From Atopobium fossor DSM 15642 (GTDB lineage Bacteria; Actinomycetota; Coriobacteriia; Coriobacteriales; Atopobiaceae), in the NCBI RefSeq assembly GCF_000483125.1, contig NZ_AXXR01000003.1, forward strand, positions 124,001 to 188,000: DNA of 64,000 bases, read 5' to 3'. Shown here one piece after another: positions 3,583 to 21,848 of the stretch. The position numbers and the translations under genes were made by a program. The notes under the pieces are model-generated. The model was not told where the DNA came from, made no database searches, and saw only the letters and a program-made list of their open reading frames with translations. Numbering within the stretch: position 1 is the stretch's first letter; the number at the start of each line of letters is the position of its first letter.

Positions 3583-3640
3583 CACGTCTCCTTACCTCAA
3601 AATTTTGTGCCGATGCCTTACTACACCTACCGACTAACGC

Positions 3641-4316: not shown

Positions 4317-4332
4317 TCTGTAAAGCAATTAT

Positions 4333-5376: not shown

Positions 5377-5412
5377 TTTGATTCCAATCTATAGCTTTTT
5401 GTACAACCACTT

Positions 5413-5455
5413 GTTACCTATCTAGCTGTTACCTATCTTCCCATAAGATAGGTAA
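5413..5455. promoter_or_regulatory. Three copies of a 10-bp element (two direct, one inverted) in a divergent promoter region
   Basis: TTACCTATCT occurs at 5413-5422 and 5429-5438, and its exact complement at 5446-5455, spaced 7 bases from the second copy. The region lies between the divergent EcsC-family and DUF1643 genes. It could be an operator cluster or an RNA hairpin in the DUF1643 leader. The repeats are seen; the role is inference. Confidence 0.45.
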
Positions 5456-5563
5456 TCATGAACTACAATTCTGTAAACGTAGGAGTCGTATGCAATGCAC
5501 GACTAGTCCACGTGATGTTAAAATCAAAAAATAAAATCGTCCTATACAAACTAAAGGCTACCT

Positions 5564-6178: not shown

Positions 6179-6258
6179 GACGCCTTTTGAAGTGCCAAAT
6201 CATTTTGAAAGGCAACGCGAAAATATAAAATGATTTTCTCGGTAATGCAGTGATTGTC

Positions 6259-6645
6259 CTATGCTTTTACCTGCACAATATCTGGAAGGATAAGTGAGGT
6301 TATCATCAGACCAAGTGCAGCTGCAAACGCCACAAGGACAAAGAAAAGGCTTCGTCCCGTTCTTTTTCGAGTGTTAAAAAGCGCCAATATGGGCGGAAGA
6401 ACGAGCGCCCTCGCTAGAATTGGCGAACTACTATTGTTGATAGCATCAAGAGCAACAAAGCCAAATATAACGATACATACTATGTAAACAGCTAATTCAT
6501 CTACTTTGAAGGGTGATGTACGAGAAAAGGTATTTACGGGTTCATCTATTATTTTTTGTCCAACAAAAGTGCGACAAATTACATAGGCGACTATATTCAG
6601 AATAGTACTGCTCTGTAAGCTATTACAACTACCAACTATTACCAG
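6259..6645 (-). pseudogene. Open frame for a small membrane protein with no usable start codon
   Basis: The minus strand has an uninterrupted frame of about 128 codons ending in TAG at 6259. It encodes two or three clear transmembrane helices (LAVYIVCIVIFGFVALDAI and LFFVLVAFAAALGLMITSLI) separated by a basic loop (NTRKRTGRS). It contains no ATG, GTG or TTG near its beginning, and the frame opens inside the end of the NERD gene. It is probably the decayed C-terminal part of a membrane protein. A CTG start at 6645 cannot be ruled out. The rest of 6179-6638 shows nothing else. Confidence 0.4.
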
Positions 6646-7679
6646 CTATTTCTTGTGTACCTACATTTGGGAAAACTGCTACATCCAATGAATGTGCTGC
6701 CATCAGACTTACGATGTCGCTCTATCAATTCTTTGCCACAGCGAGGACAAATATGATCAGAAGCATTCTGTTTTGTCTCGACAGTCTGTTTTTGAGGCGT
6801 TTCTCCAATCGAAGCTGATGTGAGTAACTCTAAGCGCAGCTTAATCATAGAGTCTTCCTCGGTTACTTGATTGGAGGGAGCCTGTTCTACTTGGATAGTT
6901 TGTTGAGCTTGAATGGCTTGCTGTACTTCAATGCTTTGTTTTTGAGACGGCTTTTTAGTAGATTGACCAGAAAAAGCCTGCCTTACCTCGGCAACATGTT
7001 CTTGAAGAGCTTCATTGGTTGACGCAGCCGCTAGCACCTCTAGTTGTAATTCAATCGTAGAAAATTGTTTCTCATTAAACAGCAATTCTCTATGAGAAAG
7101 ATCGCGCTTTATGTCTCGAACAAGGTGTTGGCGCTGACAAATATGAAACTCGGACGAATCTTCCGGCACTTTCTTAAGTTCGCAGCGCTCGGAAAATACT
7201 ATGACTGACCTAAATACACTTTCGGGCAATTGTAAGTACTCCGACAAAGCCCTAATATGTCCCCTATTTTGCATAATAGGATTGTAGAAGCGTTCCTTGG
7301 TTCTTGCGTTAAGCGCCATAGTCCACTGACGTTGATTGACACTACCAAATATCCAGCCCGAGTAATTCTTGGATTCAAAAACGTAAATGCCCCTCTCGTG
7401 CAGCATAAGCACATCAATTTCTGATGTTTCGGTCACCTTACCAAAGCGAGGCACTAACAAATTAGTGTAGGTTTCTAGTTTGCCAGGAATACTTTTGTGA
7501 TTAAGAGCATATTCCGTAAGATACTCACCATAATGTCCCTTACCTTTAAATACGTGAGGGATTCTCTCAAAAAAGCCTGGTTCTTCACCTTTCATGTATC
7601 CAAGAAAACTCAAGACAATGGCCTCATTTCTTCCTTTTGATGATGCTTGGTTATTCAATAATATTACACTTATATCCAT
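6639..7679 (-). CDS. NERD-domain nuclease-related protein with C-terminal topoisomerase-type zinc finger
   Basis: A 346-residue protein. Residues about 45-165 contain the NERD domain: GKGHYGEYLTEYAL, then SEIDVLMLHERGIYVFESKN, with the Asp and Glu-x-Lys pattern of PD-(D/E)xK nucleases. A Gln- and Val-rich, low-complexity linker follows. The C terminus (ICPRCGKELIERH, then FIGCSSFPKCRY) is a four-Cys topoisomerase-type zinc ribbon that should bind DNA. The Met at 7679 is taken as start because an upstream frame would run through the divergent Abi gene; the exact start is uncertain. It lies at the left edge of the defence island. A role in nucleic-acid attack or processing is inferred from the family. 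Confidence 0.75.
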   Translation of the reverse strand: MDISVILLNNQASSKGRNEAIVLSFLGYMKGEEPGFFERIPHVFKGKGHYGEYLTEYALNHKSIPGKLETYTNLLVPRFGKVTETSEIDVLMLHERGIYVFESKNYSGWIFGSVNQRQWTMALNARTKERFYNPIMQNRGHIRALSEYLQLPESVFRSVIVFSERCELKKVPEDSSEFHICQRQHLVRDIKRDLSHRELLFNEKQFSTIELQLEVLAAASTNEALQEHVAEVRQAFSGQSTKKPSQKQSIEVQQAIQAQQTIQVEQAPSNQVTEEDSMIKLRLELLTSASIGETPQKQTVETKQNASDHICPRCGKELIERHRKSDGSTFIGCSSFPKCRYTRNSW

Positions 7680-7823
7680 ATGTGTGTCGATACCTTGGAC
7701 AGGTGTCGGCACCGTCTCGCGGTGGATATGAATGTGATAGACTGTGGTCAGTAAACCCGCCTGGCCTCTGCTTTTAAGCATGCACACTGGCGGGTCTTCT
7801 TTATTTGGAGATATAGACACACC

Positions 7824-8780
7824 ATGGGAACATACACGAAGCCTTGGCTGTCCTTTGAACAGCAGGCGGATCTTCTCATAAACGAGCGCGGTCTTGTGGC
7901 CAATCGCAATGACCTCATCAGGCACCTTGCCGACATCGGCTACTATCGCCTGAGCGGGTACTGGCACATCTTCAAGCGTCAGCCCAAAGGTAGTAAGGAT
8001 TGTGAGAAGGACGAGCGCTTCATCGCAGGAACGTCGTTTAGTCAGGTCTGGCACCTCTACATCTTTGACAGGCAATTCAGGCTTGTCGTGCTCGATGCGA
8101 TAGAACGCGTGGAGGTCTACTTCCGCACACAGCTCGCCTACGAGCTTGCTAGAACAACTGGCACCTTCGGGTTTTTAGACCCCAGTAACCTACCCAGACT
8201 CGAGCAAAGCGAGTACGACAAGTTCATCGCAAGATGCAAGGAGGAGCTCAAGCGTTCCCGAGAACCCTTTACTCTTCACTTCAAGGAGACTTATAGCAAC
8301 GAGCACGAGTTTCCTCCCTACTGGATACTCGTCAACCTGATGGACTTTGGCACTATGCTCAAGCTCTATAATGGAGCGCCCTCTGACATCCGGAACAAAC
8401 TCGCAAGTAATCTAAATGTGAGCTCGCATGTGCTCAAATCTTGGCTTGTCGCCATAAACACAGTGCGCAACATCTGTGCCCACCATAGCCGCCTCTGGAA
8501 CAGGGGCATTGGCACCAAGCCAATCATCCCAAAGCAGTCGAAATATCCGGAGTGGCACGAGCCCTTTGACGTGAGATCGGACAACATGTTCGGCATTCTC
8601 ACCATTCTGAGTTACCTGCTGGAGCGCATTGCACCAGAAACCTCTTGGCGCAAACGCCTCTTCAGACTGCTGAATAGCCTGAATGCCGATGAGCTCCATC
8701 GTATGGGGTTTGCTGAGGGCTGGAAAGAATGCCCACTCTGGAAACCGTACGTACACATTGCCGAAGGTACTGAAGAGTAG
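7824..8780 (+). CDS. Abi_2 (AbiD/AbiF-like) abortive infection protein
   Basis: A 318-residue protein matching the Abi_2 family throughout: KPWLSFEQQADLLINERGL at the N terminus, then YYRLSGYWHIF, FDRQFRLVVLDAIERVEVYF, and RNICAHHSRLWNR at 215-227. The last is the R-x(4-6)-H motif of HEPN-type ribonucleases in this family. Known relatives abort phage infection, probably by cleaving RNA; that activity is inferred here. Length and motifs are complete, so the gene looks functional. It is divergent from the NERD gene across a 144-base gap that holds an ACCCGCC/GGCGGGT inverted repeat (7755-7795). Confidence 0.85.
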   Translation: MGTYTKPWLSFEQQADLLINERGLVANRNDLIRHLADIGYYRLSGYWHIFKRQPKGSKDCEKDERFIAGTSFSQVWHLYIFDRQFRLVVLDAIERVEVYFRTQLAYELARTTGTFGFLDPSNLPRLEQSEYDKFIARCKEELKRSREPFTLHFKETYSNEHEFPPYWILVNLMDFGTMLKLYNGAPSDIRNKLASNLNVSSHVLKSWLVAINTVRNICAHHSRLWNRGIGTKPIIPKQSKYPEWHEPFDVRSDNMFGILTILSYLLERIAPETSWRKRLFRLLNSLNADELHRMGFAEGWKECPLWKPYVHIAEGTEE

Positions 8781-9282
8781 GCGCATAAGTCAAACAAGCG
8801 TACTACAGGGCAGCTGGATGGAATGTAGGCACAGAAAGTGCTCATTTCTATGTCTTTTCAACTGCGTAAGTCCCCAAAGGCAGAACTATCTACAAAGCTT
8901 TGAGCCAAAGGAGCAGCAGTGGTCACTTGGACCAATTGTCTAGTTGAGAGAATGGATGCAACAACGCAGTAGCTCCTTCAGCAAACCACGAGGCACAATG
9001 GATAGCGAGATCTGACGCCTTCATACACCCCAGACGAGCAGCGCCACGACGAGATGAAGCGCCGAGCATCTTATGGGGCATGGCCATCCCGCCTCGCTCT
9101 GGGAGCGAAGAATCACCCACGATCGCTTGCGCGCAAGGGCCGCGAAAACTTTTCCGAAAGGTACAAAGCGCCCTTCGGGAAAGTCGAGTACATCCGTATT
9201 TCGTTTTTACCTCATACGCAGGTACCATCCGCCCCACAAGGCACTTCAAGATGTCGGCCTAGACACGAGGAGGCCTCAGGCC
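8781..9282. other. Gene-free stretch, partly GC-rich, no recognisable feature
   Basis: Several short frames on both strands cross this stretch, but none resembles a protein family or carries a ribosome site. Base composition rises after about 9000 and stays high to 9545, unlike the flanks. This suggests it belongs to the same imported, decaying segment as the yraN remnant that follows. Confidence 0.4.
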
Positions 9283-9542
9283 ATGAGAAAGAGCATCGAC
9301 TTCATCACCATGGACAGCAAGGAGTTCGTCTTTGTGGACACCGCCACCAAAGTGCGGAGTACGACATACCCAAGGAGGAATCCGACCAGGAGTGCTTCGA
9401 GGGCATCGCGGCGGCATACTTTGCCGAGTCCGAGGTGGAGGGCCTCACTAGTATCCGCTACGACATCGTGAGCCTTTTGGTGACGGGCTCCGAGAAGGCC
9501 TTCCTGCGCCACCATAAGAACGTCCTCAATGGCAGGAGGTAG
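9283..9542 (+). pseudogene. Remnant of yraN (UPF0102 endonuclease-like), truncated and frameshifted
   Basis: Two adjoining frames together give a YraN-like C-terminal part. The first (from ATG 9283) reads SIDFITMDSKEFVFVDTATK, matching the family's ExD-hinge-VFVEVKTR strand but with the catalytic Glu-Val-Lys replaced. After about 9356 the match moves to another frame: EYDIPKEE, then FEGIAAAYFAESEVEG, SIRYDIVSLLVTGSEKAFL, RHH. The N-terminal third of the family is missing. The segment is GC-rich compared with its surroundings. It lies between the Abi gene and the Hachiman operon, far from the rnhB/dprA context usual for yraN, so it is probably an imported scrap. Identification comes from motif memory, not a search. 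Confidence 0.6.
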
Positions 9543-9555
9543 ATTCTAAAACGAC

Positions 9556-9581
9556 TGCCCCGAGCCTTCGGGCTCGGGGCA
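9556..9581. terminator. GC-rich hairpin with TTCG loop at the convergent end
   Basis: TGCCCCGAGCC, a TTCG tetraloop and GGCTCGGGGCA form a perfect 11-bp stem. It lies between the yraN remnant (+) and the end of hamB (-). There is no long T tract, so it may be an inherited terminator or a transcription block. Confidence 0.65.
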
Positions 9582-9602
9582 GGGCAAATCACAGGAATCG
9601 CG

Positions 9603-12600
9603 CTACTCGTTTTGCATCCACGCCTCATATCGATTGGTAAAGTAGGCTGGTAGATTTGAAAGGTAGCTTTCTACCTCTTTCTTGTGATGAATTATGAGCA
9701 TGCGGAGAAAGTCACTTGACTTCTCTTCTGCAAACCCAAGAATCTCAACTAGGTCTCTTACGACCATTCGGTCTGCAAAGATTTCTTGAGATATGACACA
9801 ACCCAAAGGCATGCTAACTCCAAACTTGACCTTTTCATGCAGGAGGAAGAGCGACTCCTTTAAATTCACGGGTGCGCTATCGCCGAGAACCGGCTCTAGG
9901 AGATCTGCAATACAAGATATAAAGTTTGCGAGTCCATAACTTATATCATCGCTTAAAGCGCTTTCCACTCTGTGTACGTTGGGTCCCTTTCTTGGCTGAA
10001 ACGTATGATAGCTTTTGAGCTCATTACACATACCGTTGATTGTTCTTCCGCACATCCACATGTTGGCCAAATCGCTTAGCACGGCATCATCAAACCACTC
10101 GTCACCATCCCCCATACAATACCTATAAGCCTTGCAAATTAACGAAAGGCGGTGTCGATTATCTTCTGCAGCTAAGAAAGCGTCCCCATCCGCTGACTGC
10201 AGCCATTGCTTGAGCAGCTCTGTTTTAGCTACTCCCATCTGAGTCTTTGAGTAGATCGAGACGGGCAGGCTTTGAGCTTGATCCTCTAAGGTCTCACATA
10301 TTGCTTGAAACAGCTTCAATAGAAGCTCTTTCATAGCATCATCTGCACTTGCATACGCAAAAGTACTAACACTTAAACTGACCGCATTTACATCATCCGG
10401 TTTCTGTTCCAGCATACCAGCCACGTAAGTCTCGATTGCCGCGAAAGAAATTAGACGGCTGGCAATACAACGTCTTGCTTCAGATATGTTCAAACCAATT
10501 TCAACAAGAATATCGATGAGCAGAGAGGATGCGTCGCGATGCGCGAGCCCCTCCAGCATCATGTTCACAACGTCATTGCCAGGGATAACAGTAAGAGTAA
10601 CGCCTGCTCGCTTCACTGGTAAGTCGTTAAACAATTTTGCAATGGCGCTGACACAAGCTTCGCTTTGACGGTCATCCAACAGGCGGCCATAGTTCTGCGC
10701 TCCATACAAACTCAGTATCGACGGGTCACTGATGAGCACACTGCCCTCACTGTACTTACCCGAACGCGCAACCCTTCCCAAAAGGTTTTGAAAGTCTCTA
10801 GTCTTTACTGTCGAGATACCATTTTCTACTGCTGTGATAATCAAGTATTTGATTGGTAAATTAATGCCCTGCGCCAATGTCGACGTACATGCCACGCATT
10901 TAAAGTTACCTCTTTCGAGTTCGTCCTCTACCACCTGTCTCAAACATCCTTGCAGATTGCCGTAATGGGGCAAAATTCCTGCAAGGATGCCATCATGGAA
11001 GATGTTGTTACCTTGTGTGCTGCCATAGTGCATATCTACTAGCTTGGAAATCCTTTGGCCTTCATCGCTGTTGCAACTAGCAGCCAGACGTGGCAGTTTG
11101 CAGCCATGTCTAATTAGCTCATGCAAACGTGAGAAATATGCGCTAATAAAGCGCGTCTGCGGGAGATACATTGCGACAGGTCCAGTTGGGATGACCTGCT
11201 CCGCCATATACAGAGCAAGCTCTCGCGAAGACACAGCATCGTTGTCTTCATTCTCCAATGCGGGAAAATGCCTGTTCTTTGACTCGCGACCAATTGAATC
11301 CAGCACCTGCACTTTTGGTTTCAACGGCACGAAGTACTCAGATTTCCCGAGCATGTCTAAGTCCCAAAAATTAAGGTGATAACCTTTATCAATTACTCCA
11401 AGCGATTTCTCAGTCTTAGGGATGTCGTTATTAGAGATACACGATTTTGAATCCCCCATTGCCCAGTCGGCAATCTCTTCAGGATTCTGTACTACTGCAG
11501 ATAGCATGACCAACTGCGAATCAGGGTTCTTCTGCTTAATCTCCGCTATTGTCAGCTCATAGGAAGCCCCACGCGATGAGTCGTCGACAAGATGGGCTTC
11601 ATCGAGAATAAATAACTCAGTCGAAACTATTAAGCCGCCCTCATGGCGTTCAACATATGCGAATTTCTCTGGCGTAAAAACAAGTACTCGAGGTTTTGTG
11701 CTTGGTATTCCAAGCCAAGTATCTAACTCAAGTGTATCGGCGGCTTGTCTTACTTCGACGATGTCGGAGAGGCTCTTTTCCAAATCTCTTGCAATTTCAG
11801 AACAAAGTGCACGCAACGGAGCCATTACAACCGCTTGTTTACATTTGCCAGCGAGCACTCTTGACCTAATTAGGAGTTGGATGCTACGCGTTTTGCCTGA
11901 ACCCGTAGGCATCTGGACAAAGAGACTCTTCCCTTTAAAAGCGCCTGCTTGTCCAATACTTTTCTGCGATTGCCAGAGCAGACGACACGCGCTATCAGAT
12001 TTGAGGTATGAACTCCACCGGGCTTTATCCAAGCCACTAAATTCTGGAAGCCATCTACTAGCAGCAAAATTTGTCACTATCCCGATAGCGACATAACAGA
12101 CTTTTCCAAACAAGTAGCTTTCTGGACTATCGATATTGAGTAGTGTTGCAGCTTCTTCTTGCACTGAGTTGAGAGGAATCCTGTCGCCCTCGATATAGCT
12201 GATTAGCTTCGAGAGCCGTAATTCCTCATTCGGAGATGCCCCCTTGAGCAGATAGTTCACAAGAAAGTAGAATCTTGCGCCCATTTCCCCGTAGTAATGC
12301 GAGTTATGCACACGCTCTGAAGCAACTGCTGCAGAGCCAAAGTTCTCTAGCAAGAAGTACGAAGCCATCGCAAGAAGCCAGAAGCCATCACTGAATTGAG
12401 AATGATCTTCTTCGATTGAAGCTGCATCGTAGAATGAAGCGGCCTCTTTCAGTTTTCGCTGCGTATCCTCATCGGGCACCTCACTATGCAACAGTACATC
12501 CACATACGATGACAGAGCATGCATTGCATTGAAGCAAAGGTCGTCAGAATCAAACTTAAACTCGGGATATTCCTCACGTGGAGTAGAGAACTCAACAAGC

Positions 12601-12689
12601 TTCGCTTTTGCTTTAGCGTACTGGAACTTTCTTCTTATCAGCCTCTCGCCGCTCAATGCGTTGTCGTTTGAGGAGTCTCTGCCATTCAT
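9603..12689 (-). CDS. hamB: Hachiman defence helicase HamB (SF2, Ski2-like)
   Basis: A 1028-residue superfamily 2 helicase. An N-terminal domain of about 240 residues precedes the motor. Motif I is PTGSGKT at 261-267, motif II DEAH at 363-366, motif III LSAVV near 396-400, and the motif V/VI region reads STLAQGINLP and NLLGRVARSG. A long C-terminal helical region follows, as in Ski2-type enzymes. It overlaps hamA by four bases (ATGA), so the two are translationally coupled. In Hachiman systems the helicase forms a complex with HamA and, on sensing damaged or phage DNA, releases its nuclease. That mechanism is known for relatives and inferred here. All motifs are intact. Confidence 0.85.
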   Translation of the reverse strand: MNGRDSSNDNALSGERLIRRKFQYAKAKAKLVEFSTPREEYPEFKFDSDDLCFNAMHALSSYVDVLLHSEVPDEDTQRKLKEAASFYDAASIEEDHSQFSDGFWLLAMASYFLLENFGSAAVASERVHNSHYYGEMGARFYFLVNYLLKGASPNEELRLSKLISYIEGDRIPLNSVQEEAATLLNIDSPESYLFGKVCYVAIGIVTNFAASRWLPEFSGLDKARWSSYLKSDSACRLLWQSQKSIGQAGAFKGKSLFVQMPTGSGKTRSIQLLIRSRVLAGKCKQAVVMAPLRALCSEIARDLEKSLSDIVEVRQAADTLELDTWLGIPSTKPRVLVFTPEKFAYVERHEGGLIVSTELFILDEAHLVDDSSRGASYELTIAEIKQKNPDSQLVMLSAVVQNPEEIADWAMGDSKSCISNNDIPKTEKSLGVIDKGYHLNFWDLDMLGKSEYFVPLKPKVQVLDSIGRESKNRHFPALENEDNDAVSSRELALYMAEQVIPTGPVAMYLPQTRFISAYFSRLHELIRHGCKLPRLAASCNSDEGQRISKLVDMHYGSTQGNNIFHDGILAGILPHYGNLQGCLRQVVEDELERGNFKCVACTSTLAQGINLPIKYLIITAVENGISTVKTRDFQNLLGRVARSGKYSEGSVLISDPSILSLYGAQNYGRLLDDRQSEACVSAIAKLFNDLPVKRAGVTLTVIPGNDVVNMMLEGLAHRDASSLLIDILVEIGLNISEARRCIASRLISFAAIETYVAGMLEQKPDDVNAVSLSVSTFAYASADDAMKELLLKLFQAICETLEDQAQSLPVSIYSKTQMGVAKTELLKQWLQSADGDAFLAAEDNRHRLSLICKAYRYCMGDGDEWFDDAVLSDLANMWMCGRTINGMCNELKSYHTFQPRKGPNVHRVESALSDDISYGLANFISCIADLLEPVLGDSAPVNLKESLFLLHEKVKFGVSMPLGCVISQEIFADRMVVRDLVEILGFAEEKSSDFLRMLIIHHKKEVESYLSNLPAYFTNRYEAWMQNE

Positions 12690-13489
12690 TGCGTCATCCT
12701 GTCATAGAGGCTGTTAACAAGCTTCATCAACTTGTTGCCATGGACAATCAGTAGCAAATTGTCCATTCTAAGTCCGACATCTGCAGGCAGGCTTTTGGTT
12801 AAGACTTCACTAGGCGTGCAATACGAGGTGGTTACTGCGGAGCCATACTCCACTGCATAAGGCGAGCCTCCCTTATCCCAGAATCGATGAAGATTTTTTA
12901 CGGTCACGTTGTCTCCTGCACGATCCGCCTTCTTAATCATCCATTCGAGAGACATTGGCATGCGATTAGGATCTTTTGCTGAGCCTGCAGTCGCGTCTTT
13001 AATTCGTTTCAAAAATTCGGCTTCCGTTTTGCCAGAAGTATTTGATTTGACTTCAAAAACTAAGAGCTTATCGTCCGCGGATGGGATGCTACTATCACTT
13101 TGCTGATATGCAATAACGTCAGTTCCTGGACCAGACGCGTTCTTGTCTTCTCTATAGCGATGCTTATAGCGTGGTACTACAAATCCGCATAGACACTCAA
13201 GAATGTCTTCGATAATAATCTCAGCAAAGTCTCCGCTTCTCGCATTACGCCTATCTGTTCTGTCAGGTACAACCGAATTCGTGAGGTATTCACAAATGGA
13301 CAATCCAAAAAGCTTGCTCTCATAATCAAGGTCTTCATCGTATATATATTGTCGACGAAGATGCAGAGCCCACTCATCAAGCTCACTTTCAGTAATCGGC
13401 TCCCACTCAAGCAACCAACAATTTACAGAGGTACCGTCCCCAAAAGTGCACTGTTCCTTCGTGAGCCATGTTTTAAGAGACAGAGACAC
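12686..13489 (-). CDS. hamA: Hachiman defence nuclease HamA (DUF1837)
   Basis: A 267-residue protein of the DUF1837/HamA type, directly upstream of and overlapping hamB. It carries a PD-(D/E)xK nuclease core: GDFAE at about 86-90, PGTDVIAY with Asp about 124, and LLVFEVKSNTSG with Glu about 146 and Lys about 148. GTG at 13489 is taken as start because GGAGG lies 8 bases before it; an upstream TTG at 13504 would overlap that site. The gene order hamA-hamB, the sizes and the four-base overlap all match known Hachiman operons. A family search would settle the assignment. Confidence 0.82.
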   Translation of the reverse strand: MSLSLKTWLTKEQCTFGDGTSVNCWLLEWEPITESELDEWALHLRRQYIYDEDLDYESKLFGLSICEYLTNSVVPDRTDRRNARSGDFAEIIIEDILECLCGFVVPRYKHRYREDKNASGPGTDVIAYQQSDSSIPSADDKLLVFEVKSNTSGKTEAEFLKRIKDATAGSAKDPNRMPMSLEWMIKKADRAGDNVTVKNLHRFWDKGGSPYAVEYGSAVTTSYCTPSEVLTKSLPADVGLRMDNLLLIVHGNKLMKLVNSLYDRMTQ

Positions 13490-13575
13490 CTTACTTGCCT
13501 CCAATAATCTTATGCATCGTACGCCCTTGGTGCCAACCGACCAGGCAATAAATACACAATTTCTAACTGCTTTAT

Positions 13576-13587: not shown

Positions 13588-14382
13588 TCAACATACACCG
13601 CTCATTTGAATATCTAGGACGGTAACATCTATAAGTTGATTGCGAGCGCGGTGTGCTACGACCAATAAATGATAATTTAGCTGCGTGATGTCGACCTTCG
13701 AAACGTCGATTTCTCCAGACATCAGCTTTGGCAACAGAGCGTCTCGCAGTCCCGCGATCGTTTTCGATTCGTTTTCATTATGCGCAATGGCAGTAAACAA
13801 GCTGTCTAGCTGCGGTCTAACCTTCTCAACCTCTTCTTGGGTGGGCATTGGAATTTCAAGCTGTTCCAAATCCGAGCTCTTAATAGACGGATATGCCGAA
13901 GTGCTCTGTTCGGCGACGCTTTGAAGCTTTGTAGTAATCGATGATCTGGTCAGTGCAAGGTAAATAAATGGGCCACCAACCCCCATAGAATCGCGAACAA
14001 CCGTGAATCCCGTAGAGACAAGCATGTTGTTTGGCGGGTTGCACATTATTCCGTAATGAAGTTGGTTTGGTCGTACAGTTGAATAGACAACATCGCCGTT
14101 CTCCACCTTACGTCTTGCACGGCTGGGCAACTCCTCCGTTGCAGTGTCGATAACCATGGGTCTTTCGAAGTGATTGCGTGTTACCGAGCCCGTATCGACA
14201 TATGCCACAGTCGACCATTTCTCCTTCGGTGAATAAGTCGAAGGATTAAATGTGGCAAAGCATGACAACGGCGTTGGTTCACCTTCGGCCGTGAGGAGCC
14301 AGTCTTCGAAAATCCCGTCGGCTATCTCAGCCAAATTATCATTTGGTGCTCCATCAACCCGCAAAGCTACCATGTACTCCAT
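13588..14382 (-). CDS. hsdS: Silent half-gene cassette of type I specificity subunit (module delta)
   Basis: A 264-residue frame that begins at the recombination core and carries one target-recognition domain. It opens NDNLAEIADGIFEDWLL, the start of an HsdS second half, continues through SCFATFNPSTYSPKEKW, and ends with LRDALLPKLMSGEIDVSKVD, the conserved HsdS tail. It has no ribosome site, and the ATG at 14382 only reads through sequence overlapping the recombinase leader. It is best seen as a stored second-half module rather than an expressed gene. Its 3' end contains the left copy of the perfect 77-bp inverted repeat. Inversion of the segment would bring it towards the expressed hsdS. Confidence 0.8.
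   Translation of the reverse strand: MEYMVALRVDGAPNDNLAEIADGIFEDWLLTAEGEPTPLSCFATFNPSTYSPKEKWSTVAYVDTGSVTRNHFERPMVIDTATEELPSRARRKVENGDVVYSTVRPNQLHYGIMCNPPNNMLVSTGFTVVRDSMGVGGPFIYLALTRSSITTKLQSVAEQSTSAYPSIKSSDLEQLEIPMPTQEEVEKVRPQLDSLFTAIAHNENESKTIAGLRDALLPKLMSGEIDVSKVDITQLNYHLLVVAHRARNQLIDVTVLDIQMSGVC
13667..13743 (+). repeat. Left copy of the 77-bp inverted repeat (site C)
   Basis: The 77 bases are the exact reverse complement of 16430-16506. They cover the conserved HsdS tail and end in the AAATGATAATTTAG core at 13667-13680. The flanking bases diverge, so the identity is confined to the repeat. Confidence 0.92.
14333..14344 (-). repeat. hsdS recombination core, site D
   Basis: A minus-strand copy of the 12-bp core AAATGATAATTT at the beginning of module delta, 62 bases before the recombinase start. 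Outside the core only a few bases match the other sites, so it may recombine less often. Confidence 0.6.
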
Positions 14383-14405
14383 CACGTTCAACGAAAGGAA
14401 CAGCA

Positions 14406-15371
14406 ATGGAGGCAGAAATAAACCAAGTGCTTGTGCGGATGCAAGACAATCTAAGCAGTACGCAGCTACAGCTCTTAAAAAGGACTCTTGAAGATGTGCT
14501 CAATACGCCCATGACAAGCAGCGCCTGCAATAACGCCCACCTATTAGCCCTCTTCCTCACGGCAAAGGAGGTAGAAGGTTGCTCCACAAAGACGCTTGCC
14601 TACTACGAGAGCACCATCAAGCACATGAGCCTCACTGTGGCAAAGCCCTACATACAAATTTGCAGCGACGACCTGAGGCGATATCTGAGCGACTACGAGT
14701 CACAGCGCCACACAGGCAAGGTAACCATCGACAACATCAGGCGTATTCTCTCTAGCTTCTTCTCGTGGCTCGAAGACGAAGACTACGTGGTAAAGAGCCC
14801 CATCCGCCGCATACACAAGGTCAAAACTCCAACGAAGACGAAGAGTGTCTTGAGTGATGAAGACCTAGAGACCCTACGGGACACCTGCAGCGAGCAACGA
14901 GATCTCGCAATTATCGACATCCTCATTTCAACCGGCATTCGCGTTGGCGAGCTCGTCGGGCTGAACATTGCAGACGTGGACCTGCAAAACCGCGAGTGCG
15001 TTGTTACCGGCAAAGGCAATAAGCAACGCTTCGCCTACTTTGACGCCAGAACAAAACTGCATCTCCAAAAGTATCTGCAAGAACGAATGGACGATAACCC
15101 TGCCCTATTTATTGCACTCAAAAATAATGGCGCAAGACTTACAATTAGCGGTGTTGAAGAAAGACTGCGCTCACTTGGCAGACGGGCCGGCGTTGGCAGA
15201 GTACACCCACACAAGTTCCGCCGGACCCTCGCCACGCATGCCATCGACAAAGGCATGCCAATAGAGCAAGTGCAGAAACTCCTTGGACACGCCAGAATTG
15301 ATACAACCATGCACTACGCGCTGGTAAACCAGAACAACGTGAAGGCATCGCATAGAAGGTATTTGGAATGA
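14406..15371 (+). CDS. Tyrosine recombinase (XerC/D-like) associated with hsdS inversion
   Basis: A 321-residue phage-integrase family protein. The N-terminal SAM-like core-binding domain covers about residues 45-135 (LTAKEVEGCSTKTLAYYEST). The catalytic domain carries Arg in STGIRVGEL, HKFRRTLATH (His-x-x-Arg), and LLGHARIDTTMHY with the second His and the Tyr nucleophile, so all catalytic residues are present. ATG 14406 is used because AAGGA precedes it at proper spacing. It lies within the hsdS locus, between four copies of the core repeat, and its stop overlaps the ATG of the next hsdS by four bases. It most likely catalyses the hsdS inversions rather than chromosome dimer resolution. Confidence 0.88.
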   Translation: MEAEINQVLVRMQDNLSSTQLQLLKRTLEDVLNTPMTSSACNNAHLLALFLTAKEVEGCSTKTLAYYESTIKHMSLTVAKPYIQICSDDLRRYLSDYESQRHTGKVTIDNIRRILSSFFSWLEDEDYVVKSPIRRIHKVKTPTKTKSVLSDEDLETLRDTCSEQRDLAIIDILISTGIRVGELVGLNIADVDLQNRECVVTGKGNKQRFAYFDARTKLHLQKYLQERMDDNPALFIALKNNGARLTISGVEERLRSLGRRAGVGRVHPHKFRRTLATHAIDKGMPIEQVQKLLGHARIDTTMHYALVNQNNVKASHRRYLE

Positions 15372-16519
15372 GTACGATTGAGCTTGACAACATCTGCAGG
15401 TATCGCACAGAGAGCGTGTCTGTTGGCCCGCTGCCTTACATAACGACCGAATCAATGCTACCAAATAGAGCTGGAATTGCCGCCAATCTGTCTAAACCTG
15501 CCAGCGAAAAAGCTCGTCTCTTCCATAAGGGAGACATTCTCATCTCAAATATTCGCCCCTACTTCAAGAAGATATGGCAGGCGAATTACGACGGATGTTG
15601 TTCACCCGACGTGCTCGTCTTTGAGCCATCACATTGTGATGCAGAGTACTTGTATTGGCTGCTATCGGACGACGCATTCTTCAACTATATGGTCTCGACC
15701 ACCAAAGGGACCAAAATGCCACGTGGAGATAAGTCCGCAATCATGCACTACACACTCGAGCATATGGACGCTGGAAAACAGCGTGCGATAGCAGGTGTAA
15801 TGAATCCCATCCGTGAGCTCATAACCACTAACCAGCGCACAAATGATAATTTAGAAGATTTGGGCCAAACGCTCCTTGCTCGCTATTTGGAAGCATGTGA
15901 TGAATCTGTTTCTTTGGGTGCCATCATGGGTTTTGGAAACGGATTTGCATTCAAAAGCGGAACCTATGCAGACAATGGCCAATATAAAGTTTTGACCATC
16001 AAGAACGTCCAAGACGGCAGTGTCGATTGCTCCGCGTCAAACAGGATTGATGCGTTGCCGGTAAAGATGAAAAGCTTTTGCAAATTGCAGCTCGGAGATG
16101 TCGTGTTGTCCCTTACCGGAAATGTCGGACGAGTTGGCATTGTCGCAGAAGAGAACTGCCTGTTGAATCAACGTGTAGCTGTGTTACAGCCGCAGTCAGC
16201 ACAGTTATTGCCCGGTCTATATTTCTTCTTTAGGCAAAAAACATTCCAGAACGAAATGATTGGAATCGCCAAGGGAACTGCCCAAGCAAATCTCAGTCCG
16301 GTTGAGACTCTTCGCCTTAATATTCCCTACAACAAAGCGGCCTTCGAGGAACTAAGCGATAGCTTGGCACCTCTCTTCGATTCGATTCTGGCAAATAAGA
16401 TCGAAACGCAAAAACTTGCCGAGCTCCGTGACGCTCTGTTGCCAAAGCTGATGTCTGGAGAAATCGACGTTTCGAAGGTCGACATCACGCAGCTAAATTA
16501 TCATTTGTGCGCTGATTAA
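15368..16519 (+). CDS. hsdS: Complete type I specificity subunit HsdS (modules beta-gamma), opposite to hsdM
   Basis: A 383-residue HsdS with two recognition modules. Residues 1-152 (ISNIRPYFKKIWQANYDG) form module beta and end in the first conserved region NQRTNDNL. Residues 160-345 (LGDVVLSLTGNVGRVGIVAE) form module gamma, followed by the conserved tail LRDALLPKLMSGEIDVSKVD. It lies on the strand opposite to hsdR-hsdM and starts within the stop of the recombinase gene (ATGA), so it is probably translated by coupling from recombinase mRNA. If so, it could supply specificity in trans while the hsdM-linked copy is a half gene. Module beta lacks some N-terminal sequence compared with average HsdS. 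Confidence 0.85.
   Translation: MSTIELDNICRYRTESVSVGPLPYITTESMLPNRAGIAANLSKPASEKARLFHKGDILISNIRPYFKKIWQANYDGCCSPDVLVFEPSHCDAEYLYWLLSDDAFFNYMVSTTKGTKMPRGDKSAIMHYTLEHMDAGKQRAIAGVMNPIRELITTNQRTNDNLEDLGQTLLARYLEACDESVSLGAIMGFGNGFAFKSGTYADNGQYKVLTIKNVQDGSVDCSASNRIDALPVKMKSFCKLQLGDVVLSLTGNVGRVGIVAEENCLLNQRVAVLQPQSAQLLPGLYFFFRQKTFQNEMIGIAKGTAQANLSPVETLRLNIPYNKAAFEELSDSLAPLFDSILANKIETQKLAELRDALLPKLMSGEIDVSKVDITQLNYHLCAD
15833..15854 (+). repeat. hsdS recombination site A
   Basis: 22 bases identical, in reverse orientation, to 16493-16514. They begin CAGCGCAC and continue into the AAATGATAATTTAG core, encoding the central conserved region Gln-Arg-Thr-Asn-Asp-Asn-Leu of HsdS. About 20 further upstream bases match site B imperfectly. 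Confidence 0.85.
16430..16506 (-). repeat. Right copy of the 77-bp inverted repeat (site B, long arm)
   Basis: Exact reverse complement of 13667-13743. It encodes the HsdS tail on the + strand and, on the minus strand, supplies the stop that ends the half-length hsdS next to hsdM. Confidence 0.92.
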
Positions 16520-17063
16520 GGGTTATTTTCGATTCGATGTTGTCGAGGATATGAACCGCTTTGTGCTGGTCTTCGAGACTCGGCAAGTCGATTTCGATAC
16601 GAGCCACATCTGACGGATGAACCCTGAAAACCTTCATTCCCTTTACGTACTGGCGCAGGAGTCTCTTGAATCGTACGGTTTGCGTCATGTAGTTTAGGTA
16701 AGCAGGAAGAACTAGGTCCTGCCTGCTTACGCGCATAATTGTCGTCTCGGTCCCTGCAACTGCGGGAACGCTCGTGGGGTCTTTGAACAAAAACGCATGT
16801 CCAAGATCGTTGACAGTCTCGGATGTCAAAACGTAGACGATATCTTGGTCGACGAGAAACTGTTCACCTTTAATCTTTTCAGACGAAGCAATAGCAGGAA
16901 GCGGTTTCTGCGGGTCTTCCACGTCGATATAGATATTGAACCCCTTGTACAGATCTCCATAGTGCACATAGAGATAGTCGCCCGACTCTTGCATACGAGC
17001 ACGCGGAACGCTTGCACCCCTGAAAAAATTACAGAGCTCACCGATCTTGTACTTAGAGCCCAT
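16485..17063 (-). CDS. hsdS: Half-length type I specificity subunit HsdS (module alpha) in the expressed position
   Basis: A 192-residue S-subunit half. It has one recognition module (GELCNFFRGASVPRARM, then YVLTSETVNDLGHAF) and the central conserved region LNQRTNDNLAA, then stops. The stop comes from the inverted repeat, so the second module is missing in this orientation. ATG 17063 overlaps the end of hsdM by 11 bases, making this the copy expressed with hsdR and hsdM. Inversion between sites A and B would fuse it in frame to module gamma and restore a full HsdS. Half subunits of some type I systems work as homodimers, so the present state may be off or may recognise a symmetric site. Confidence 0.85.
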   Translation of the reverse strand: MGSKYKIGELCNFFRGASVPRARMQESGDYLYVHYGDLYKGFNIYIDVEDPQKPLPAIASSEKIKGEQFLVDQDIVYVLTSETVNDLGHAFLFKDPTSVPAVAGTETTIMRVSRQDLVLPAYLNYMTQTVRFKRLLRQYVKGMKVFRVHPSDVARIEIDLPSLEDQHKAVHILDNIESKITLNQRTNDNLAA

Positions 17064-18564
17064 ACCCGATAGCCTCCAGGTTCTTCTTGATCTCTTCCTG
17101 TAGGCGATTCGACTCCTCAAAGCACTTGGAGAGTTCGCCAGTCAGCCTAGCCATCTTCTCTTCGAAGGGTTCGCCATCGTCCTCCTCGTCGGGGATGCCA
17201 ACGTAGCGACCGGGCGTAAGGATGTAGTCCTGCTTGGCAATGTCCTCGATGGTCACAACGGCGGAGAAGCCATTCTCCTCTTCAAGCGTACCCTCACGGA
17301 ACGCATCAAACGCCTTGGCCACCTTCTGGATATCCTCCGGCATGAACTCGCGCAGGCTGCGCGACACCATCGTGCCCATCTCACGGGCGTCCACGAAGAG
17401 CGTCTTGCCCTTCTGCGGCTTGTCCTTGTCGATGATCCACAGGGATACAGGGATGCCCGTGCTGTAGAAGAGCTTATCAGGCATGGCGATGATGCCCTCG
17501 ACGTAGTCGGCATCCATAATCGCCTTGCGAATCTCTCCCTCGTTGTTTGTCTGCGACGACAGGGAGCCGTTCGCCAGGACCATGCCCATACGCCCACGCT
17601 CATTCAGGTGGTGGATCATGTGCTGCATCCACGCGAAGTTCGCATTGCTCTCGGGCGGGATGCCGAACTCCCAGCGAGGGTCGTCCTGCAGGCGGTCGCC
17701 GCCCCACTCCTTCAGGTTGAAGGGCGGGTTCGCCAGGATGAAGTCGAAGCGCTTATCCTTGTGCAGGTCGTCGAAGAACGTGTCGGCGTTGTGCTCGCCG
17801 AGGTCAGCGTCAATGCCGCGGATAGCCAGGTTCATCTTGGCCATCTTCCACGTAGTCGGGTTGCTCTCCTGCCCGAAGATCGAGATATCGCTGATGTTGC
17901 CGGCGTGGCTCTCCACGAATTTGGCCGACTGCACGAACATGCCGCCCGAGCCGCAGCACGGGTCGTAGACGCGCCCGTGATAGGGTTCGATGATCTCGAC
18001 CAGCGTCTGGACTATGCAGGTGGGCGTGTAGAACTCGCCGGCATTCTTGCCCTCCTGCTCTGCGAACTTGGCCAGGCAATACTCGTAGGTGCGCCCCAGC
18101 ACGTCCTGCGTGCCGTCTTCGCCAGCCGTCTTCACGTTGGTGAAAAGGTCGACAACATCGCCCAGCATGCGCTTGTCGAGCTCCTGGCGGGCAAAGTTCT
18201 TGGGGAGGGTGCCCTTGAGCGTCCTGTTCTCCGCCTCGATCTCACGCATGGCCTCGTCAATGACCTTGCCTATCTCGGGCGTGTGCGCAGCCTTCGCAAT
18301 CTCCTCCCAGCGGGCCCCCATAGGGACCCAGAAGATGTTCTCGAAGCCGTACTCGTCGCGGTCCTCCTCGAAGCCTTCGCCCTCATCCACGAGCTCCCGG
18401 TGACGCTGCTCGAACCTATCCGAGATGTACTTGAGGAAGATGAGGCCGAGCACCACGTTCTTGTACTCCGAGGCGTCTATATGGCCGCGCATGCTGTCCG
18501 CTGCCTTCCAGATCTTCTTCTCGAAGCCCAGCTCCTGAGTGTTCGATTGTTTCTTAGTTGCCAT
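17053..18564 (-). CDS. hsdM: Type I restriction-modification DNA methyltransferase HsdM
   Basis: A 503-residue N6-adenine methyltransferase. The N-terminal HsdM helical domain (about 1-150) begins LGFEKKIWKAADSMRG. The catalytic domain has the SAM-binding motif DPCCGSGGMF at 201-210 and NPPF at 279-282. The C terminus contains helices that contact the S subunit. It lies 9 bases after hsdR and overlaps hsdS, in one operon. It modifies adenines at sites chosen by HsdS and forms M2S and R2M2S complexes. Its GC content and codon use are clearly higher than in the flanking housekeeping genes, which suggests acquisition. Confidence 0.95.
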   Translation of the reverse strand: MATKKQSNTQELGFEKKIWKAADSMRGHIDASEYKNVVLGLIFLKYISDRFEQRHRELVDEGEGFEEDRDEYGFENIFWVPMGARWEEIAKAAHTPEIGKVIDEAMREIEAENRTLKGTLPKNFARQELDKRMLGDVVDLFTNVKTAGEDGTQDVLGRTYEYCLAKFAEQEGKNAGEFYTPTCIVQTLVEIIEPYHGRVYDPCCGSGGMFVQSAKFVESHAGNISDISIFGQESNPTTWKMAKMNLAIRGIDADLGEHNADTFFDDLHKDKRFDFILANPPFNLKEWGGDRLQDDPRWEFGIPPESNANFAWMQHMIHHLNERGRMGMVLANGSLSSQTNNEGEIRKAIMDADYVEGIIAMPDKLFYSTGIPVSLWIIDKDKPQKGKTLFVDAREMGTMVSRSLREFMPEDIQKVAKAFDAFREGTLEEENGFSAVVTIEDIAKQDYILTPGRYVGIPDEEDDGEPFEEKMARLTGELSKCFEESNRLQEEIKKNLEAIGYGL

Positions 18565-18573
18565 GCTGCCGCC

Positions 18574-21500
18574 TTAATCCATAACCCGACTGTCAGCCCA
18601 GAGCTCGCACTGCCGCATGACGGTGTCGAGCGCCTCTTCCTGCCCGTCGGGTGGGTACTTGTATTTCTTGAGGAGGCGCTTTATCGAGCGGCGCATGCCC
18701 GCGCGGGCGCTCTCCTTCCTCTGCCAATCTATCGTAGCGTTGTTTCTCAGCTGCTCGGTCAGCTCTCGCGTGATGGCGACCAGCTGGTCGTTATCGTAGA
18801 AGTCTTTGACCGCCTGAGGTTTGGTGAGGGCGTCGTAGAAGGCGAGCTCCTCCTTGCCCAGGCCGAACTTCTTGCCCTCCTCGCACTCCGCCATCATCTC
18901 GTGCGCCATCTTGATAAGCTCTTCAATGACCTGTGCGTTGGAGAGCATGCCGTTGAGGTACCCGTTAACGGAACGCTGAAGCATGTCGGAGAACTTCTCC
19001 GCCTGGACGACGCTCGTCTTCTGGTAGTCGCGGACCTGTTCCTTGATGAGGCGCTTGAGCGTCTCGTAGGCGATGTTCTTCTCCTTCATGCGGCGAATCT
19101 CCTCGAGAAAGCCCTCGTCGAAGAGCGAGACCTCCACCTTGTCCTTGCTGTCGAACAGGTCGATGACGCCCTCGCTGTGCACGGACTGCTCGAGGATGGC
19201 CGCGACACGGCAGTTGAACTCCTCGTAGGTCATGCCTCCGCCACCAGTGCCGTTGCGACCAAGGATGCGCATCACCTGCACACGCAGGACGTCTATGAAC
19301 GCCGCCTCGTGCTGGTCCTGCTCGGAGACCATACTCTTGCAGAGGCTCTCCGCCTTCGCGAGGAGCTGCGCCTGCTTCAGGAAGTCGTCGCGCGTCTCCT
19401 CGTGCGCCGGACTGAGCAGCCAGTCGGTGCATTCGGATATGAGAGTCGCAAGAGTCACCTTGTCGGACGTGAACACCCGCTCGCAATAGCGTGTGCCGTG
19501 CAGGAGGTCGCGGCAGACCGAGAGCTTCTCCTGGAACTTGGGGTAGGCAGTCTTGGCGACGTCCATGTCCCCGTAGTTCCTGCGGTCGCGGTTCGTGTAG
19601 GACTTCATGGCATACTTGAGGGCGTTCGCAATGCCGATGTAGTCGACGATAAGCCCGCCCTCCTTGCCCGGGTACACGCGGTTGACGCGGGCGATGGCCT
19701 GCATGAGGTTGTGGCCCTTCATGGGTTTGTACATGTACATGGTGGCAAGCGAGGGGACGTCGAAGCCCGTGAGCCACATGTCCACGACGACGGCAATCTT
19801 GAGGGGGTCGTCGTCGCTCTTGAAGCGGCGCTCCATCTCCGCCTTGTGTTCCTTGCCGCCCACGACGTCGAACCATTCCTCGGGGTCCTGGTTACTCGTG
19901 GTCATGACCACGTCCACTTTGTCGGTCCACTCCGGGCGAAGGCGCATCAGCTCGTGGTAGATCTTCATGGCGATGGGGCGCGAGTAGGCCACGATCATAG
20001 CCTTGCCGGCGAGCAACCCCGCGCGGTTCGCCTCATAGTGGGAGACGATATCGCGGCAGAGGTCGGTCACCGTCTCGGGAGCACCGAGGATGCCGTCGAG
20101 CCCGGACATGAGGTGCTTACTGCGCTGCGCCGTCTCCTCGTCGTGCTCGTCGGAGAACTCCTTATAGGCTTTGTCGAGGCTCTCGAGCGCGTCTGCATCG
20201 AGGTTGAGGGCCACGACCCTACTCTCGTAGTAGACGGGAACCGTTGCCTCGTCCTCGACTGCCTGCGTCATATCGTAGACGTCGATGTAGTCGCCAAACA
20301 CCTCGCGGGTGTTGCGCCCGTCGAGCGCGATGGGCGTCCCCGTGAAGCCGATGTAGCTCGCGTTAGGCAGTGCGTCGCGCACGAGCTTTGCGGCGCCGAT
20401 CGAAATGGTGCCGTCGGGCTTTATCTCCTCGATGAGGCCGTACTGCCCGCGATGGGCCTCGTCGACCATGACGATAATGTTATGCCGCTCGCTGAGCGGG
20501 CCGTCTCCCTCGGAAAACTTCTGCATGGTGGTGAACACGATGCCGTTGGCGTCGCGCTCGGAAAGCAGGTCCTTGAGATTACCCTTGCCTTTGTCGCGGT
20601 GAAGCGCCTGTACGGGGACTTGTCTCAGGAACTTGGTGCAGCGGCCGAACTGTCCGAAGAGTTGGTCATCGAGGTCGTTTCTGTCGGTCACGACAACGAA
20701 CGTGGGGTTCTCCACTAGCTGTTGCATGAGATGCACAAAGAAGACCATGGAAAGTGACTTCCCTGATCCCTGCGTATGCCAGAAGACACCAATCTGGCCA
20801 CTCCCGCCGACGGCGGAGAGTGCGCGCGCCGCAGCCTTCCTCACGCCGAAGTACTGGTGATAGGCCGCCAGAATCTTCACCGTTTTATCTGCGGAATCGT
20901 TGAAGCAGATGAAGTTGCGGATGATGTCGCAAAGCCGCTCTTTGCGGAACATGCCCTCGAGTGTGGTCTTCCAGTTGGCAGTCTGCGTATCAGAATAATC
21001 ACCATCCGCGCTCTTCCAGGCGACGTAGCGGTCTTCGGTCGCAGTGATGGTACCGACGCGCGTTTCGGTCATGTCGCTCATCACGCAGAAAACGTTGGGC
21101 ACAAACAGGGAGGGGATCGCCTTGATGTAGTTTCGCAGCTGCAGGTAGGCATCCGAAGCGCTTGTCTCCTCGCGAGAGGGAGACTTAAGCTCGAAGACCA
21201 CAACGGGGATGCCATTCAAGAAGACGATGAGGTCGGGGCGCTTGTTTTCGTGCTCTACGTACGTCCATTGATTGACAATGTGGAAGAAGTTCTTCTCGGG
21301 ATGCTCGTAGTTGACAAGGTAGACGATATCGTCGCGGTCTTCCTTGCCATCGAAGTAGCGAACTTCGACGCCCGATTGCAGGTAGTCGGTGAAGACCTCA
21401 TTGCGCTGTTCAAGAGAGCCACTCTCCACTGCGGAGAACTTCATCATCGCCTCGTCGATAGCGACGGACGGAAGGCTCGGGTTTATACGACAAAGGCTCT

Positions 21501-21672
21501 CCTTGAGAATCCTAGGCAGGAAGACATCTTGATACCGATCACTCGTACGCTCCACATCTGGACCGTGCAGATATTCATATCCGAGGTTCTCCGTGAAATA
21601 CTGAATGAGCATTTCCTCGTAGAACTCTTCGTTGAACGGAATGGAGACGGTCGCGTATTTCATATCACCCAT
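18574..21672 (-). CDS. hsdR: Type I restriction endonuclease HsdR
   Basis: A 1032-residue restriction subunit. The N-terminal nuclease has RPDLIVFLNG (Asp about 147) and VVFELKS (Glu about 161, Lys about 163). The translocase has GSGKS at 302-306, DEAH at 404-407 and the downstream YIGFTGTPI. The C-terminal helical region fits the MTase-binding part. It is full length with all motifs intact. ATG 21672 is used because GGAGG precedes it; it overlaps the stop of the ribbon-helix-helix gene by one base. The protein cuts unmodified DNA after ATP-driven translocation when bound to HsdM and HsdS. GC is high, and a long open frame on the opposite strand is a by-product of that composition. Confidence 0.95.
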   Translation of the reverse strand: MGDMKYATVSIPFNEEFYEEMLIQYFTENLGYEYLHGPDVERTSDRYQDVFLPRILKESLCRINPSLPSVAIDEAMMKFSAVESGSLEQRNEVFTDYLQSGVEVRYFDGKEDRDDIVYLVNYEHPEKNFFHIVNQWTYVEHENKRPDLIVFLNGIPVVVFELKSPSREETSASDAYLQLRNYIKAIPSLFVPNVFCVMSDMTETRVGTITATEDRYVAWKSADGDYSDTQTANWKTTLEGMFRKERLCDIIRNFICFNDSADKTVKILAAYHQYFGVRKAAARALSAVGGSGQIGVFWHTQGSGKSLSMVFFVHLMQQLVENPTFVVVTDRNDLDDQLFGQFGRCTKFLRQVPVQALHRDKGKGNLKDLLSERDANGIVFTTMQKFSEGDGPLSERHNIIVMVDEAHRGQYGLIEEIKPDGTISIGAAKLVRDALPNASYIGFTGTPIALDGRNTREVFGDYIDVYDMTQAVEDEATVPVYYESRVVALNLDADALESLDKAYKEFSDEHDEETAQRSKHLMSGLDGILGAPETVTDLCRDIVSHYEANRAGLLAGKAMIVAYSRPIAMKIYHELMRLRPEWTDKVDVVMTTSNQDPEEWFDVVGGKEHKAEMERRFKSDDDPLKIAVVVDMWLTGFDVPSLATMYMYKPMKGHNLMQAIARVNRVYPGKEGGLIVDYIGIANALKYAMKSYTNRDRRNYGDMDVAKTAYPKFQEKLSVCRDLLHGTRYCERVFTSDKVTLATLISECTDWLLSPAHEETRDDFLKQAQLLAKAESLCKSMVSEQDQHEAAFIDVLRVQVMRILGRNGTGGGGMTYEEFNCRVAAILEQSVHSEGVIDLFDSKDKVEVSLFDEGFLEEIRRMKEKNIAYETLKRLIKEQVRDYQKTSVVQAEKFSDMLQRSVNGYLNGMLSNAQVIEELIKMAHEMMAECEEGKKFGLGKEELAFYDALTKPQAVKDFYDNDQLVAITRELTEQLRNNATIDWQRKESARAGMRRSIKRLLKKYKYPPDGQEEALDTVMRQCELWADSRVMD

Positions 21673-21848
21673 CACTTCGCCTCCTTCACGATAGCATCGG
21701 CGAGGATGGACGAAATGAACGCGCTTACGCTCATACACTTCTTTTCAGCCAGTTCCTTGACGGCATTCTTGAGTTCTGGAGTCACAGCAAATATGACCCT
21801 CTCGGTCTTCTTGCCGTTGAGGAGAGTCTGTCTATTGATCTGCTCCAT
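21672..21848 (-). CDS. Small ribbon-helix-helix protein heading the hsd operon
   Basis: A 58-residue protein. TERVIFAVTPELKNAVKELA and KKCMSVSAFISSILADAI have the strand-helix-helix pattern of CopG/Arc-type DNA-binding proteins. The Met at 21848 is preferred to one at 21872 because GGAGG lies 7 bases before it. It overlaps hsdR by one base, so it is the first gene of the hsd operon and may regulate it. No toxin-like partner lies beside it, which argues against a plain antitoxin. Confidence 0.7.
   Translation of the reverse strand: MEQINRQTLLNGKKTERVIFAVTPELKNAVKELAEKKCMSVSAFISSILADAIVKEAK

Follow-up and report, generated by a model that had tools for sequence, protein, structure and literature searches.

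SsuCC20p of Streptococcus suis is the closest characterised system to the locus analysed here, a type I restriction-modification locus with four target recognition domains (TRDs) and a resident tyrosine recombinase in a 64-kb stretch of the Atopobium fossor DSM 15642 genome (the window). Published systems are described throughout from excerpts of the papers cited. SsuCC20p has four TRDs; its repeat, TAAATCATCATTTA, forms two identical pairs, and switching requires the recombinase of the locus (PMC10790761). The excerpted report gives a single complete hsdS for every S. suis assembly with a complete locus, and describes no S. suis assembly in which an inverted recombinase was seen (PMC10790761). 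The hsdS behind the recombinase is transcribed and takes part in methylation (PMC10790761). Judged from sequence comparisons, the window locus is very probably a specificity shufflon of this kind, in which the recombinase joins two first halves of hsdS with two second-half cassettes at a 12-bp core.

Other systems share parts of this design. The pneumococcal SpnIII ivr/cod locus (CreX/PsrA) carries three unlike repeat pairs of 15, 85 and 298 or 333 bp (PMC6620402, PMC7096588, PMC4948785), with the repeat core ATTATGGGAA (PMC6620402). Pneumococcal tvr/SpnIV likewise shuffles the TRDs of a type I locus by means of a recombinase, and is set apart from the window by excision and reintegration via direct repeats and by its TvrAT genes (PMC6265443). 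A type I locus of Bifidobacterium longum NCIMB 8809 has the order S3-recombinase-S2-S1-M-R (PMC4618763), the gene order of the window. In a defined gut community, hsdS inverton group 145 has repeats conserved across Bacteroidota and Firmicutes_A (PMC11892184); like the window, its invertons overlap hsdS beside a tyrosine recombinase, as judged from the description. Homologous systems across many phyla were noted by Li et al. 2016 (PMC4948785). From the last three reports, as excerpted, this kind of locus is therefore well known. No description in Coriobacteriia was found in a limited literature search.

The window comprises positions 124001-188000 of the 345315-nt contig C2, with the contig ends far off, in a genome of 1.65 Mb (4 contigs, completeness 97.55%). 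The genes matched those of the original prediction: hsdR, hsdM and three hsdS segments with four modules (alpha to delta), and a tyrosine recombinase among them. The restriction subunit gene hsdR lies at 18574-21738 (-) (Pfam HSDR_N, SWI2_SNF2 and T1RH-like_C; NCBIfam TIGR00348, 547 bits, above cut-off), and hsdM, for the N6-adenine methyltransferase subunit, at 17053-18564 (-) (Pfam N6_Mtase 372 bits, HsdM_N; under the NCBIfam cut-off with 186.6 vs 242.75 bits). With hsdR, hsdM and a complete hsdS all above the Pfam cut-off, the locus was classed as type I restriction-modification. The half gene alpha, holding a first TRD (16485-17063, -; 192 aa; Methylase_S 46 bits, translation), has its start codon at 17061-17063 within the end of hsdM. 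The recombinase gene (14406-15371, +; Phage_integrase, E 2.9e-34) is followed by beta-gamma (15368-16519, +; 383 aa, two TRDs; Methylase_S 60.9 bits in two stretches), the sole complete hsdS in the assembled state of the locus, alpha and delta being incomplete. Its first-half module beta (15368-15840, +) has an ATG that overlaps the recombinase stop (ATGA). The second-half cassette gamma, delimited by repeats and translation (15853-16494, +), occupies the slot next to hsdM and is now fused to beta. The second-half cassette delta (13679-14332, -; Specificity_I 90 bits) is silent, having no first half ahead of it in the present state; it had no Pfam match at E 0.001. The delta cassette open reading frame spans 13588-14406 (-) and the delta second-half module 13588-14345 (-). 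By BLASTP, alpha and beta were 31% identical over 70 residues and gamma and delta 33% identical over 201 residues; the four recognition modules are therefore different.

The core AAATGATAATTT was present in the window as four exact 12-mers in the alternating orientation that had been predicted (+-+-): site 1 at 13667-13678 (+), antisense in the delta tail; site 2 at 14333-14344 (-), at the start of the delta cassette; site 3 at 15841-15852 (+), at the beta-gamma junction; and site 4 at 16495-16506 (-), in the TNDNL codons of alpha and antisense in the gamma tail. No further match occurred in the 64-kb window even at one mismatch. Shuffled windows held a mean of 0.54 matches and none of 100 got to four. 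The whole genome contains five exact copies, four of them in the locus and the fifth at C2:209116-209127, about 69 kb away. In the genome as a whole the AAAYNNNNATTT arms by themselves are less frequent (184 matches) than their reversed control (219), and a match therefore carries information only when it covers the full 12-mer. A 113-nt, 88% inverted repeat, the tail repeat (left arm 13667-13779, right arm 16394-16506), contains sites 1 and 4; a 34-nt, 91% inverted repeat contains sites 3 and 4, and a 24-nt, 83% one contains sites 1 and 2. As sites 1-2 flank delta and sites 3-4 flank gamma, each second-half cassette is bounded by an inverted pair.

The cores had been placed at conserved NDNL codons or at the tail repeat; this was confirmed with a refinement at the tails. 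Sites 2, 3 and the alpha-side reading of site 4 encode [T/P]NDNL; the LNYHL tail codons of delta and gamma contain sites 1 and 4, respectively, in antisense. Because site 4 is at once the gamma tail in antisense and the TNDNL codons of alpha, alpha stops two codons past it. In alpha, beta/gamma, delta and the two tails alike, the first base of the core is the third of a codon. With a single codon phase at all junctions, every fusion of a first half with a second half is in frame. Symbolic enumeration of 16 configurations returned beta-gamma as the present fusion, alpha-gamma and beta-delta after one inversion, and alpha-delta after two. These in-frame fusions and inversion counts are those claimed originally.

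Several traits are shared with SsuCC20p, as far as its excerpted description extends: hsdM, hsdR, four TRDs, a tyrosine recombinase of the locus and a single complete hsdS at any one time; an hsdS placed behind the recombinase; both second-half TRDs between inverted pairs of one short repeat; and the shape of that repeat (TAAATCATCATTTA in SsuCC20p, AAATGATAATTT in the window), although the middle of the core differs. The printed 14-bp SsuCC20p repeat occurred in exactly four copies in L120, the locus of S. suis 10581, and the recombinases of L120 and the window are 59% identical (191/322 columns). Given the reported transcription and methylation activity of the hsdS behind the S. suis recombinase, beta-gamma is likely active in the window. 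The original prediction had likened the locus to pneumococcal and other hsdS inversion loci. The kind is indeed known, but SsuCC20p is closer than pneumococcal ivr/cod. The window and ivr/cod, as excerpted, both have a type I locus in which a complete hsdS is accompanied by additional hsdS genes, inverted repeats and a tyrosine recombinase of the locus, but ATTATGGGAA had 0 exact matches in the 64-kb window. At one mismatch it had 3 matches, none within the locus, vs a shuffled mean of 3.83. Pneumococcal ivr was rejected as the closest design on this difference in core sequence and on the better match of SsuCC20p.

Relatives of the recombinase were collected from two sources. Within the order, 48 of 395 genomes, counting that of the window, encode a relative with an E value no higher than 1e-60. 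In the genome collection at least 553 recombinase relatives were found among at least 590 candidate stretches, and the best 80 were kept; by record titles, relatives extend to Bifidobacterium, Bacteroidota, Bacillota and Methanobrevibacter. The 80 loci, 40 stretches of the order and the window were pooled and three duplicates removed, leaving 118 loci, 112 of which (window included) have an hsdS no more than 1.5 kb from the recombinase. Three or more identical cores of the AAAYNNNNATTT shape were present in 64 of the 118, and exactly four in alternation in 42. In the first set, three or more identical cores were found in 48 of 78 loci with hsdS vs 1 of 7800 shuffled regions, with strict alternation in 43 of the 48. 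A pattern-free search recovered a repeat of at least 12 bases, in at least three copies and both orientations, in 68 of 113 loci with hsdS. The repeats had the AAAYNNNNATTT shape in 60 of these 68 and another shape in eight (L099, L111, L119, L121, L159, L160, L163 and L169).

All but two of the 42 loci with four cores in alternation have an hsdM, and the resulting 40 (window included) were compared further. They contain 14 different cores, and 95 of the 780 locus pairs have the same core. In this set the constancy of the outer core bases follows from the search pattern, which requires them, and the agreement of the cores of a locus in the middle follows from the selection of loci. Unbiased support comes, for the outer bases, from the pattern-free repeat count and, for the agreement in the middle, from the matches to the outer bases with a different middle, which stood at chance level (27 in 143 kb vs 28.3 expected). 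A shared outer part, with a middle that matches between partners, is expected of a tyrosine recombinase, and the four middle bases are presumably the exchanged ones. The variation of the middle among loci and the chance-level count both speak against the repeats being simply conserved coding sequence (NDNL and tail codons) that recombines rarely by homologous recombination. So do the sites at 13667 and 16495, where the same 12 bases lie antisense in tail codons unrelated to NDNL. The 113-nt tail repeat is long enough for homologous recombination, but we regard this explanation as extremely improbable.

All 40 loci have the order hsdM-alpha-[slot1]-(recombinase + beta)-[slot2]. The cassette of slot1, next to hsdM, was directed toward alpha in 22 loci and away in 17 (1 unscored), and that of slot2 away from hsdM in 21 and toward it in 17 (2 unscored). 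The middle block, made up of the recombinase and beta, was directed toward hsdM in 25 and away in 15. The codon phase of the alpha junction was the same in 39 of 40 loci, the other having no open frame. In the branch of the window's recombinase, an actinobacterial group of 15 loci, one is from Bifidobacterium (L054, of a species other than B. longum) and the rest are from the window's order; slot1 was directed toward alpha in 8 and away in 6 (1 unscored), and the middle block had the window's orientation in 15 of 15. The order has a sixteenth locus, L146, in which the middle block is in the opposite orientation and the recombinase clusters with the S. suis one.

Both states thus occur among related loci. 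Residues R179, K203, H269, R272, H295 and Y304 of the window's recombinase were invariant in an alignment of 11 and are taken by us to be the catalytic residues; searches of PHROGs and NCBIfam returned nothing beyond general integrase/Xer names for the protein. A frozen relic, once shuffled and now locked in beta-gamma as an ordinary single-specificity type I system, would fit the one assembled state known in the source organism and a middle block that is fixed by clade. The two states among relatives, the retention of the invariant residues, four intact and identical 12-bp cores and open frames make it very unlikely. Shuffling by the resident recombinase, as originally proposed, is favoured by the different states of relatives, by cassette breaks at or near the cores (below) and by the recombinase dependence described in the SsuCC20p excerpt (PMC10790761). 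We infer that flipping would occur in the source organism, with the recombinase acting at the locus, beta-gamma expressed and effects on methylome and expression.

Orientation changes were counted on the recombinase tree of the 40 loci and compared with shuffled labels. Slot1 changed 15 times vs a shuffled mean of 13.0 and is as labile as random; slot2 changed 14 times vs 12.8. The middle block changed 4 times vs 12.4, with 0 of 300 shuffles equally low, and on these sequences it looks fixed by clade. Delta may therefore be reached by slot exchange instead of the originally proposed route of two inversions. With the middle fixed, inversion of a single cassette yields only alpha-gamma and beta-gamma, and delta needs slot exchange.

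Evidence of cassettes in changed slots was obtained by comparing 107 cassettes of 63 loci, excised at the cores; 25 cassette pairs matched over at least 85% of the shorter member. L060 comes from Bacteroides clarus and L068 from Bacteroidales bacterium SW299; outside the locus the two align colinearly at about 91%. Within it, a cassette matched over 714/714 bp (90.9%) reversed and in the other slot, with the same middle orientation, and the left flank match stopped one base beyond the core. A cassette of L098 (Prevotella multiformis) matched one of L112 (Hoylesella nanceiensis) over 672/672 bp (99.3%) on opposite sides of the recombinase. Genome G319, of the same order, has a 651-bp cassette that is 100% identical in three slots of L140 and L142, in both orientations: one locus holds it reversed in slot1, and the second holds it in each of its two slots. 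These two loci share a core and lie about 1.45 Mb apart; an adjacent 3.2-kb match reached just 76%, and the cassette match stopped no more than 15 bases from the cores. It is as if cassettes had been traded between the two loci. In three whole-locus comparisons the cassette breaks fell at the cores or within 15 bases of them. Further matches were two identical 651-bp cassettes in L139 (window's family), a 99.8% identical cassette in both slots of L132, reversed, and, among other pairs, a 99.5% match between L062 and L072 on the same strand. By protein comparison, a beta-like half (53%) is fused in L140 to a delta-like half (52%), two modules that are separate in the window. Identical repeats within single assemblies may be assembly errors, and cassettes could also be copied between loci by homologous recombination.

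These results bear on whether excision and reintegration at directly repeated cores, as in pneumococcal tvr, and not inversion, is the main route of cassette exchange. Such exchange would account for slots that change freely beside a middle block with 4 changes on the tree, for the L060/L068 cassette in different slots under the same middle orientation, and for identical cassettes in two loci of one genome, which inversion alone cannot yield. The SsuCC20p authors, in the excerpted text, also consider TRDs changing place (PMC10790761). Both slot orientations are nevertheless common in the class with the window's middle orientation, and an exchange that keeps orientation does not yield them; the identical cassettes may stem from homologous copying. 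Excision and reintegration as the main route is plausible but rather doubtful.

The orientation of the middle block separates the window from L120 of S. suis. In the window the recombinase-beta block is directed toward hsdM and the two first halves face the same slot; in L120 the block is directed away from hsdM, the same way as hsdM points. Block orientation was treated as a variant, and not as a defining trait, of the SsuCC20p-type TRD shufflon. In the enumeration, the window's middle orientation gave exactly one complete hsdS in 8 of 8 configurations, and the S. suis orientation gave one in 4 of 8, none in 2 and two in 2. Exactly one complete hsdS is unavoidable in the mirrored block because alpha and beta both face slot1. 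Natural loci with the S. suis-type orientation had one complete hsdS in 13 of 15, two in 2 and zero in none; this rule was spotted post hoc in that class and was already published for S. suis. We tentatively propose, as a possibility somewhat short of probable, that the window represents a mirror-image class of shufflon. The recombinase-beta block would be held in an orientation unseen in S. suis, and two first halves would compete for one cassette, giving one complete hsdS per reachable state without coordination. The core middle would act as the address of a locus, and a shared address would let cassettes pass from slot to slot, and even from one locus to another in the same genome. The mirrored arrangement would be the sole new part, judged from single assemblies of many species.

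In the proposed mechanism alpha, behind hsdM, and beta, behind the recombinase, would join gamma or delta at the core AAAY-NNNN-ATTT. Binding by the resident recombinase is presumed to be at the outer bases, which are conserved, with strand exchange in the middle ones, which are specific to each locus. The assembled state would provide beta-gamma as the complete subunit, its gene running in the same direction as that of the recombinase and overlapping the stop codon of the latter, with alpha as a half subunit. Inversion of the cassette between sites 3 and 4 would move gamma from beta to alpha, and delta would form a reserve, entering via slot exchange or further inversions. Each state would give a different bipartite methylation motif.

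Several observations weigh against a shufflon that is active in this form. The middle block looks immobile on the tree, and all 16 formal configurations need not be used. The state in the source organism was read from one assembly of one strain, and alpha, lacking a second half, may have no activity or may work as a dimer. Promoter and terminator scans gave fewer matches than shuffles and placed nothing, including no promoter ahead of the recombinase. At the threshold used, the recombinase was absent from two genomes of the same genus. Among the 118 recombinase loci, 54 are without three identical cores of the AAAYNNNNATTT shape, some being cut by contig ends, and in L066, L071 and L121 the identical cores are direct and not inverted repeats. 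Many recombinases at 51-61% identity adjoin hsdS genes of one direction without a core set, apparently another design.

Loci of the latter kind include L150, L152, L157, L158 and L160-L166, where recombinases 51-58% identical to that of the window stand beside two or three hsdS genes in the same direction, with no AAAYNNNNATTT set; these apparently follow another exchange design. The genome of the window also holds a second type I locus with several hsdS genes, which belongs to a different class (L182, C1:493000-512000, positions 3175-13533). Its genes are hsdM, a complete hsdS that carries WEQRK/LITLHQRK repeats, a member of the Fic family, two half hsdS genes, an hsdR whose product has an EcoR124_C domain, a gene for a tyrosine recombinase and, convergent, another half hsdS. 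Its recombinase is 24% identical to that of the window over 197 residues. L182 resembles the pneumococcal tvr/SpnIV design as excerpted (PMC6265443), and the genome may therefore hold two kinds of shuffling locus. A third hsdS region, at C1:105215-106519, has an in-frame TAA in one of its two Methylase_S stretches. Direct repeats were absent from C1:99000-112000 in a repeat search, which returned two weak inverted repeats. Within the window, hamB and hamA of a Hachiman system (9603-13504, -; PADLOC HamB1 665 bits, HamA1 203 bits) adjoin the delta cassette, and a protein of the AbiD / Abi_2 family (7824-8780, +) is a further sign of a defence cluster.

If switching is true of this locus, a clonal population would contain up to four methylation patterns, and phage defence, DNA uptake and perhaps gene expression would be affected. 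The many related loci, with common outer site bases and different middles, would offer a test bed. The two mirror arrangements would set a single complete hsdS guaranteed by geometry against one that needs coordination.

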